Positions 1-2,530 of a stretch of DNA of 64,000 bases are shown here, piece by piece. Positions within the stretch are counted from its first letter, which is position 1; the number at the start of each line of letters is the position of its first letter. Under the pieces are notes generated by a model. That model did no database searches. It worked only from the letters and a program-made list of their open reading frames with translations, and was not told where the DNA came from. The position numbers and the translations under genes are program-made. The stretch is from positions 868,001-932,000 of the forward strand of contig JAYKXP010000006.1 in NCBI GenBank assembly GCA_037176845.1, given 5' to 3'. The DNA comes from Paramarasmius palmivorus. Its lineage: Eukaryota; Basidiomycota; Agaricomycetes; Agaricales; Marasmiaceae.

Positions 1-772
1 CGATAGGATCCAATGGGAACAGTCGGAAGAGGGCAAGAAGGTCACGGATACTTTGAAGGATGAAGAACATATACCGTGAGCTCGTCTCCGACCATGTCCC
101 CTGCGCGATACTGATACCTGAGATGCAGGCTGTACACTTCCATCGATCCCGCACCGCCAACATCAAAACTGCTCTATGGTGTTCCCAGACCCGAAGATGT
201 CTCCGAAGAAAGCATCGACAAACTAAAAGCAGAACTTCTTGACACCAAAAGACCTCTCTTTGAGAGGTACCGTGCAATGTTTGCTCTCCGAAATATCGGC
301 TCCCCTGCTGCTGTGGATGCGTTAGCGGCGGGTTTCGCTGATGACAGTGCATTGTTTAAGTAAGTTTCGGGATTTTATTCTCCTGTGTACTTGGCTGATC
401 TATTATCTACTAGACATGAAATTGCCTTCGTATTTGGGCAACTGCTTTCACCGCACTCTGTTCCTTCTCTTCTCAAGGTCTTGCAGGACGCAAAGGAATC
501 TGATATGGTTCGCCATGAAGCTGCCGAGGCCCTTGGTGGCATCGGTACTCCAGAGGTACTTCCTCACATTACTGAGTGGATGAACCGTGAGGATGCGCCT
601 CAGGTCGTCCGAGAGAGTTGTCAGGTCGCTGTTGATATGTGGGAGGTAAGTCATAGACACGCCGTTACGTTTGGAGACATCGATTAACTTACTCCTTCAG
701 CACGAAAACTCTGGAGATTTCCAGTATGCCAATGGACTCGAAGCTCCATCGGCCCCCATCGCCGTTGCATGA
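1..772 (+). CDS. lia1: Deoxyhypusine hydroxylase (3' part; gene enters from the left edge)
   Basis: This enzyme hydroxylates deoxyhypusine on eIF5A, the last step of hypusine formation, using a di-iron centre held by His-Glu pairs in HEAT-like repeats. The open frame begins at base 2, so the 5' half is missing. Exons read 1-75, 129-359 or so, 415-648 and about 702-772, with introns beginning GTGAGC, GTAAGT and GTAAGT. Visible features are YTSIDPAPP in the inter-domain linker, then HEIAFVFGQL and RHEAAEALGGI, the third and fourth His-Glu metal motifs. The end, CQVAVDMWEHENSGDFQY followed by a short tail, matches the family C-terminus. The first two HE motifs lie outside the window. The assignment is firm; only the left boundary is unknown. 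Confidence 0.95.
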
Positions 773-983
773 GCATTGTATTGATTCGCGTTGTATATAA
801 GTAGACCTTTCTTGTAGTATCCGTGTACTCTACTCACTTGTAAGTACATCCACTTTGACGGTAATCGCGAGCATCTTGGGATTGTTGCTTCATGTTACAT
901 GATTATACACATTTTGCGGTTTAATTTACATATCAGAGATTCGTGGGGCGCTATTAGCGTACATGTAATGTCATGAAAGATCA

Positions 984-2418
984 TCAGAGTGCTCTGGGCT
1001 TTTTCTTTGCAGCTGTCTTCTTTACAGGCTTCTTGGCAACAGGTTTCTTCACTGCAGGTTTCTTCACCGCAGGCTTCTTTGCTACGGGCTTCTTCGCTGC
1101 AGGCTTCTTAGCAGCAGGTTTCGTCGCCGTAGCTTTGGTCGCAGGCTTTTTAGCCGGTGCCTTTGCTGGGGCTTTTGCGGGTGCCTTCGCTGGAGCTTTG
1201 GTCGCAGTCTTTGCAGTCTTAATCGGGAAGAACACAATCAATACGATAGGTAGGTGACTACCGAGAGTCGACTTACAGGTGTGCATGCCTTTGCTTTAGC
1301 TGGTGCCTTCTTTCCAGTTACTTGCCTGACAACCAAGTTCATTGCTCGTCGCCAGAATGGTTCATTGTAATCTTCCGGCTCCTCAAACTCATCACGTTTG
1401 CATCGATTGATGGTCGCCTGAGTCTCATCGACAATCTGAATTCCTCCGCCCTGTTTGGGAACGGCGGCAGGTGATAGCCTAGCCGCCTGGCTATTCGACC
1501 TGAACGACAAGACTCAACATACGGTACCAGTACAGTTCATGACTGAGAACTTACTTCGAAATTATAGACGTCAACAGACGATTATAGTCAGCTGCGAAAT
1601 TCGAGAAGCCTTGTCCTGGTCCCATGATTGAGGACATCTTAGAGTTAATCGATGTTGCTACGCTCGAGGCCGTGGGTTTCAGCAGCGTGAGGTAGCTAGC
1701 GAGACCTTTCTAGGAGGAAGTCAGTCAAGGGTGTCACACTCAGGCGGAGAACATACCGCAGCCTTTTGGCTTGTACCCCCAGTACGGAAGTTTCCTGAAC
1801 CAAACATCACACCCTTCGCTAAAGTCGCTTTTAGTATCATGGGCTTCTCATGAATTGCGAACGACTTACCATTATTGACGGTGCCCTCCACGTTCACCAA
1901 ATTAGCACCGGTGTTGATGGTGTTGAAGAAATCCCTGAAATCTTGGCTGTTTGGTTGCGTGAACAGGGTACAAATTGCTGGGTTGCCCTTATTGATCTTG
2001 TCCGCGATGAATTGAAGCTCGACGATGTGATCTTGAAATAAAATCAGGAAGGGCCGTCGGCAAGCGACAACTTTGACTCACCGCACTGCGATTTGACACC
2101 CTGATTTGACTAGAGAGTATCACTTGAGATCAGAAGACTTCAAAATGAGGCTCCAGTACTTACCGAGACCTTCTTCATTGTCCCATCGGTGCCACTGGTC
2201 GGGTTAGCGAATTTGAACGTAGTCCCTGGACACTTGAGGCTCTTCAATCGGAGGCCCAACGCGTTGTTACAGATGCAAGGACCTGGTTTACCGTCCCCGC
2301 AAGTCCGTGCAGCTGCACGCTTGTGGAGATCAATCTCGAGCTCCACAGGAGCGGCAAATGAAAGAGGGAGCAGCACGGCTGCGGTAATGATAGCGATGAG
2401 GAAGCGGGAAGTGAGCAT
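984..2418 (-). CDS. Secreted protein with DHIVEL/NLV motif and histone-H1-like Lys/Ala/Pro tail
   Basis: Seven exons (2418-2164, 2109-2082, 2031-1870, 1827-1757, 1709-1555, 1499-1277, 1217-984) join in frame to 375 residues. Residues 1-22 form a signal peptide (hydrophobic ITAAVLLPLSFAA). K33-R34 is a likely Kex2 site. Cysteines lie at 40, 48, 50, 63, 94, 115, 257 and 296. CDHIVELQFI (94-103), then NLVNVEG (138-144) and NN (147-148) resemble the DH...N(L)...N spacing of His-Me-finger (HNH) nucleases; this is inference only. Residues about 287-375 are nearly all K, A, P, V and T in AKAPAK and AAKKP repeats, like a linker-histone tail, so nucleic-acid or polyanion binding is possible. The tail is spliced on through a clean GT-AG intron (1276-1218), so it does not look like a separate gene. 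Start ATG fits the signal peptide and a TATA box 104 nt upstream. Confidence 0.85.
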
Positions 2419-2521: not shown

Positions 2522-2530
2522 CCTTTTATA
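2522..2530 (-). promoter_or_regulatory. TATA box of the secreted H1-tail protein gene
   Basis: On the minus strand the sequence reads TATAAAAGG, a perfect TATA consensus, 104 nt upstream of the ATG at 2418. It suggests a regulated, strongly transcribed gene. Confidence 0.6.

Follow-up and report, generated by a model that had tools for sequence, protein, structure and literature searches.

Background

A link between the DUF1524 motif and the His-Me-finger endonucleases is drawn in a passage of a paper on the fungus Duddingtonia flagrans (PMC6453484), and DUF1524 proteins are present in other fungal secretomes as well, according to portions of three reports (PMC6453484, PMC10051545, PMC10269595). 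Portions of a further report describe Nuc1, a secreted deoxyribonuclease (DNase) of the plant pathogen Cochliobolus heterostrophus, as a virulence factor whose proposed target is the plant's extracellular DNA, which is itself proposed to be a plant defence material and part of a defence matrix (PMC6401486). Consequently, fungal enzymes able to meet such DNA are of interest. In this article, we describe a gene in a 64,000-nucleotide stretch of the genome of the mushroom Paramarasmius palmivorus (contig JAYKXP010000006.1, positions 868,001 to 932,000; hereafter the window) and compare its product with these and other known systems.

Judged by its sequence, the gene is a member of an unannotated multigene family, which looks to be undescribed. 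Its product is probably a secreted, divergent GmrSD_C-like His-Me-finger protein with a histone-like polycationic tail. We favour, with some confidence, the more specific reading that it is a secreted, metal-dependent His-Me-finger (HNH) nuclease that is distantly related to GmrSD_C/DUF1524 and carries a polycationic tether. Coordinates below are positions in the window, and residues are numbered along the 372-residue product; L denotes genomic loci, P public proteins, C contigs of the P. palmivorus genome itself and A family alignments.

Conserved residues, profile match and predicted fold

The search for homologues covered 5.8 billion proteins (one round scored 7996 candidates only) and returned 33 homologous proteins, 23 with an organism name and ten without one. 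Conservation was counted over 43 rows, where three genes are present twice, as our own model and as a public protein, and where each denominator is the number of rows with a letter at that position. D95 is kept in 31 of 36 rows and H96 in 31 of 39; N134, N147 and K150 are each kept in 41 of 42. Position 138 is N in 33 of 42 rows (R in 6, G in 2, K in 1) and position 148 is N in 28 of 42. The conserved polar set is D95-H96, N134, N147 and K150, so that N134 and N147 replace N138 and N148, which an earlier sequence-only reading of this DNA had taken as the motif asparagines. The sole exception at N147 and K150 is the paralogue L042, where this stretch is disturbed; N134 is missing only from P0013, whose model is shifted. 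Our own model of the genomic copy L046 is poor at DH, which is present in its public model, P0030. As to L042 (G000:C61:270000-274000), it keeps CDHIVEL and the tail, and its N..AKG stretch is disturbed in the model; it is either a decayed copy or the product of a wrong splice model.

The family profile A3, built from 13 core sequences, was compared with a profile of nine bacterial GmrSD_C (DUF1524, PF07510) domains; 13 PF07510 loci had been read, and L135 and L139 (GmrSD-type, EHI.P), L141 and L142 were left out. The profile-profile comparison gave a probability of 92.25 and a score of 46.75, against a maximum of 19.29 in 200 column shuffles and 9.63 for the reversed profile. A second profile, A5, gave a probability of 91.5 and a score of 41.4, with a maximum of 17.25 in the shuffles. 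In the alignment, DH falls on DH, N134 on the N of FAND, NL on NL, and N147..KG on N..KG. In the bacterial L137 and L143 the N of NL is replaced by Q and FAND is kept, which parallels the variable N138 and constant N134 of the fungal family. One bacterial protein of the set exceeds the curated cut-offs of both PF07510 and HNH_4. A chance motif was considered and is ruled out by the conservation within the family together with the profile shuffles.

An AlphaFold2 model was made from 23 sequences for P0001, a Moniliophthora homologue that shares 68% identity with the tail-less window protein. It contains a strand S89-H93 that ends in D92-H93, a second strand at L135-E139, and a helix at A140-F150 in which N143 and K146 lie. 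Over this strand-strand-helix region the predicted local distance difference test (pLDDT) has block means of 88 to 97; values are low in the tail and signal. The predicted order is that of a His-Me finger, with the histidine closing the first strand and the proposed metal-ligand residue in the helix, as an order of secondary-structure elements. The initial guess of a His-Me finger thus gains the predicted strand-strand-helix order and the GmrSD_C match, and loses N138 and N148 as its motif residues.

Gene structure and protein features

The gene model, read from the window sequence, runs on the minus strand from 2418 to 984 and encodes 372 amino acids. It confirms the seven cleanly spliced exons claimed before; the six introns are 47-59 nt long and all GT-AG. 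The features are as follows.

2522..2530, minus strand: putative TATA-like box TATAAAAGG, some 110 nt upstream of the start codon, read directly from the letters
2164..2418, minus strand: exon 1, residues 1-85, with the signal-like peptide, KR at 33-34 and the N-terminal Cys-rich part
2082..2109, minus strand: exon 2 (28 nt), ending in the Cys94 codon and the opening base of the Asp95 codon
1870..2031, minus strand: exon 3, residues 95-148, with the remainder of D95, H96-I-V-E-L-Q, a helical insert, N134, N138-L-V and N147
1757..1818, minus strand: exon 4, A149-K150-G151 through residue 169
1555..1709, minus strand: exon 5, residues 170-220, a helical part of the core
1277..1499, minus strand: exon 6, residues 221-295, with the core end, acidic linker, Cys254-K-R, predicted helix FWRRAMNLVVRQVTG and Cys293
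1218..1276, minus strand: intron 6 (59 nt, GTAAGT..AAG), which joins the tail to the preceding exon
984..1217, minus strand: exon 7, residues 296-372, with the K/A/P-rich tail and the stop codon

The protein features listed by the earlier reading are all present in this product. The N-terminus is hydrophobic and signal-like (the best 12-residue Kyte-Doolittle mean is 3.05, starting at residue 6, a measure of hydropathy only) and is followed by the KR site. There are eight cysteines, six in the core (40, 48, 50, 63, 94 and 115) and two later (254 and 293). DHIVEL occupies residues 95-100, NLV stands at 138 and NN at 147-148, and an acidic linker separates the core from the K/A/P-rich tail, which comprises 87 residues from residue 286. 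The protein is probably secreted, given this N-terminus.

On the plus strand, tail to tail with the gene, window positions 115-772 hold a neighbour with HEAT repeats (PF03130, PF13646), which we take to be probably a deoxyhypusine hydroxylase. An antisense frame across the tail (958-1257, plus strand) was rejected as a mirror of the K/A-rich exon that is otherwise unsupported.

Weighing the nuclease reading

Several results set limits to the nuclease reading. No core domain was found in Pfam, NCBIfam or PHROGs, and PF07510 (cut-off 23 bits) is unlisted up to an E-value of 10 for the whole protein and for the 13 A3 cores. Scans of the P. palmivorus genome with HNH_4 and PF07510, the latter exon by exon, gave no match over the cut-off. 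The profile-profile comparison with PF01844 (HNH) gave no match (probabilities of 0.4 and 0.5), and no CxxC pair surrounds the motif. The sequence search of the PDB gave no match for the protein, and no HNH enzyme stood out when the full P0001 model was compared with the PDB and BFVD by Foldseek and by VIA-align; a "putative homing HNH endonuclease" at BFVD rank 35 (E 5.7) is a meaningless match. The strand-strand-helix region modelled alone has a pLDDT of 54 and no fold. GmrSD_C was picked by eye after a motif search of HNH loci, so that its single-comparison E-value of 5.7e-7 needs multiplying, to about 0.014 if all 24736 Pfam families are counted. With no match of the core in Pfam and none in the PDB sequence or Foldseek searches, the family is to be seen as a divergent relative of GmrSD_C.

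A further such limit is that four Mycena models read CGDIVEL, CGNIVEL or CGIIVEL and thus lack DH. These odd residues are the ones expected from the second GT of a GTGAGT, GTAAGT or GTATGT donor at the intron inside the motif, and we suspect errors in the models. The public Mycena models P0004, P0005, P0007, P0015, P0019 and P0020 are faulty or divergent precisely where the intron interrupts the D-H codons; P0020 (CDQ...) suggests that this intron lies within the His codon in some Mycena.

If real, the Mycena genes without DH would fit a different kind of protein, a cationic coat or antimicrobial whose core serves as a scaffold without catalytic function and whose tail and helix attach to extracellular DNA, to acidic wall polymers or to membranes. 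The charge of the tail, +29 over 87 residues with an isoelectric point of 11.4, agrees with such a role. So does its spread in the family: among the rows counted for C-terminal features (39, less L042 and P0026, in which the pattern used for the count gave no core motif), the K/R fraction of the last 80 residues is at least 0.20 in 26 of 37, and several of the other 11 are by eye short, shifted or truncated models (P0013, P0022, P0031-P0033). However, a scaffold leaves the profile match to nucleases unexplained, as it does the fact that the residues of the HNH site are among the best conserved. We regard this explanation as unlikely, if the least unlikely of the alternatives considered here.

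Under the nuclease reading, the protein would enter the endoplasmic reticulum by its signal peptide and then lose a short propeptide at KR33-34, and the core would fold with up to three disulfides from its six cysteines. With active-site roles assigned from HNH enzymes in general, H96 at the strand end would be the general base that activates water, and the metal ion would be coordinated by D95 and N147, with N134 and K150 in a supporting role at the active site. The charged tail would keep the enzyme bound to nucleic acid or to acidic polymers of the wall or matrix, and the enzyme would work near the hypha on extracellular DNA or RNA, either the host's, that of competitors, or as a nutrient.

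Is the tail part of the protein?

Retention of intron 6 would make the protein stop at 307 amino acids, and the join across this intron decides whether the core carries the tail. A GTRAGT donor of the last intron lies at the same phase-0 place, soon after the last cysteine, and leads into a K-rich exon in all six copies of the subfamily (the window gene and L039-L043). Because the junction script ranked candidates by their K content, and so favoured K-rich exons, the join is supported by this rather than proven; the result covers these six copies, and the four other genomic places differ in exon layout. In addition, P0006, P0017 and P0018 are proteins of 397-406 amino acids with both core and tail, encoded in contigs of 1285 to 1426 bases. 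Such contigs are too small for six introns of 50 bases and, by their lengths, probably represent complementary DNA. The possibility that the tail was borrowed from a neighbouring gene is ruled out by the junction shared among the six copies and by these three contiguous proteins, and the comparative evidence supports the claim, made from the window alone, of a joined histone-H1-like tail.

For L040 and L041, the least saturated pair of copies, the ratio of nonsynonymous to synonymous substitution rates (dN/dS) amounts to 0.13 for the core and to 0.20 for the tail. The dS value is usable in six of 15 core pairs, with ratios of 0.08 to 0.30, and is saturated in all five core comparisons against the window gene, which leaves no ratio for that gene itself.

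A tail of this composition could also belong to a chromatin protein of the fungus whose signal peptide has been miscalled. The tail matches HC2 weakly in Pfam (E 0.0024; 18.5 bits, below the cut-off of 40), and the source of P0017 names that protein "histone H1/5", evidently on account of the tail. Against this stand the full-length members with a hydrophobic N-terminus followed by a basic site, the conservation of the core cysteines as in secreted proteins, and the result that Pfam gave no globular histone H1 domain in the window protein. We consider a chromatin protein very improbable.

A module between core and tail

A module made up of Cys254, a basic site, a helix that contains W and FVVR-like residues, and finally Cys293 lies between the core and the tail. 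The two late cysteines are present together in 23 of the 37 rows and neither is present in 9; three rows (P0014, P0021, P0027) have a single one, and in the remaining two (P0013, P0022) the C-terminus is shifted or unrelated. In the 23, the basic site after the first late cysteine is KR or RR in 20 and TR in 3. The joint presence or absence of the two cysteines suggests that they may form a disulfide, and cleavage at the basic site combined with a Cys254-Cys293 disulfide would yield two tied chains. The module could instead be a simple hinge.

The two chains could form an effector in which a Kex2-like cut after Lys255-Arg256 leaves the nuclease tied by Cys254-Cys293 to a cationic chain, made of an amphipathic helix and a tail resembling a nuclear localization signal, that would carry it into other cells or their nuclei. 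The rows that have both late cysteines and the basic site are consistent with such a design, as is the basic KKKPR motif at the end of the window tail; nucleoplasmin-like basic clusters end several others, as seen by eye. However, dibasic and TR sites are common, and the disulfide is deduced. The linker and helix blocks of the P0001 model have pLDDT values of only 52 to 72, and the hydrophobic moment of the helix is moderate (0.40) and not among the highest in the protein. The module is also found in members from Mycena, a genus mostly regarded as saprotrophs, which does not favour an effector, as against the several carriers that are plant pathogens (for M. palmivorus, PMC8581569). On balance we hold the effector to be rather unlikely.

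More broadly, the family may consist of lineage-specific secreted nucleases that exist as protease-cut, disulfide-linked two-chain proteins, where an HNH-like chain is tied via Cys254-Cys293 to a helical, histone-like polycationic chain that anchors or carries it. We advance this proposal as unlikely, a shade more so than the effector.

Distribution and significance of the family

All 23 homologues with an organism name come from Marasmiineae mushrooms (Moniliophthora, Marasmius, Paramarasmius, Mycena, Favolaschia). A taxonomy look-up assigns Paramarasmius palmivorus to the Marasmiaceae within the Marasmiineae, and Mycena to the Marasmiineae also; Favolaschia belongs there too. Three of the homologues, P0027, P0029 and P0030, are P. 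palmivorus proteins (VNI00_006487, VNI00_007307 and VNI00_017366). The P. palmivorus genome has nine further matching places: contig C61 carries five of them, and C23, C19, C170 and C309 carry one each. The copies on the small contigs C170 (L046) and C309 (L047) are nearly identical, and reflect either a recent duplication or two haplotypes of a single locus. None of the 33 homologues is recorded as a product of the window, so that the public proteome seems either to lack the window gene or to contain it as a very different model. In a tree of 24 cores the deep branches are weakly supported (59/91 at the main split), and Moniliophthora members fall on either side, a pattern that suggests two or more old subfamilies. 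When prokaryote genomes and viral contigs were scanned, no relative turned up, and a search of open-licence literature (titles and the starts of abstracts, with partly loose terms) found no description of the family.

If the nuclease reading is true, the family represents secreted nucleases that have gone unrecognised, with some ten gene places in the Paramarasmius palmivorus genome and with cacao and palm pathogens among the mushrooms that carry it, and it provides an example of a disordered histone-like tail joined to a secreted enzyme. We take the M. palmivorus of cacao thread blight to be an older name for the same species as Paramarasmius palmivorus. A passage of one study lists M. palmivorus among the agents of that disease in Ghana (PMC8581569). 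Candidate roles of the family are defence, competition or nutrition. The evidence suggests that these proteins have been overlooked because they have no Pfam match, because the tail attracts the name "histone H1/5", and because gene models break at the intron in the active-site motif.

Comparison with known systems

The histone H1 C-terminal domain and the chlamydial HC2 have a Lys/Ala/Pro-rich makeup in common with the tail, a likeness of composition only, and differ in that the window tail sits on a probably secreted protein. Nuc1 is predicted, in the portion of its report cited above, to be of the TatD type and thus belongs to another family than the window protein. The HNH proteins of PF01844 carry a CxxC zinc knuckle, and the window family lacks CxxC pairs; common to both is the N..K pattern and, for L058, CDHIVELQ. 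This peptide occurs in the small bacterial and viral-contig proteins L058, L075, L079 and L087, of which L058 is a bacterial HNH endonuclease (PF01844, 36.4 bits) that carries it verbatim, and the other three look alike by eye.

The DUF1524 proteins of Duddingtonia flagrans, Thielaviopsis punctulata and Trichoderma atroviride are secreted fungal proteins of PF07510/DUF1524, to which the window protein is distantly related in our reading. Compared by description only, they differ from it in being recognised by Pfam, and the portions of their reports at hand mention no cationic tail.

The closest likeness is to the secreted-type bacterial members of GmrSD_C/DUF1524 (L133, L136, L137), which have the D-H, F..N...NL and N..KG elements in the same order, with matching spacing at the right end. 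GmrSD_C-type bacterial proteins at L098 and L101 have, by eye, signal-like or membrane-like N-terminal stretches, as has the window family. In contrast to GmrSD_C, the window family falls below detection by Pfam, has a longer insert between DH and N134, and lacks the W.PP segment that follows the bacterial motif; the window protein continues towards its C-terminus with a helical part and the K/A/P tail, and its gene has seven exons.
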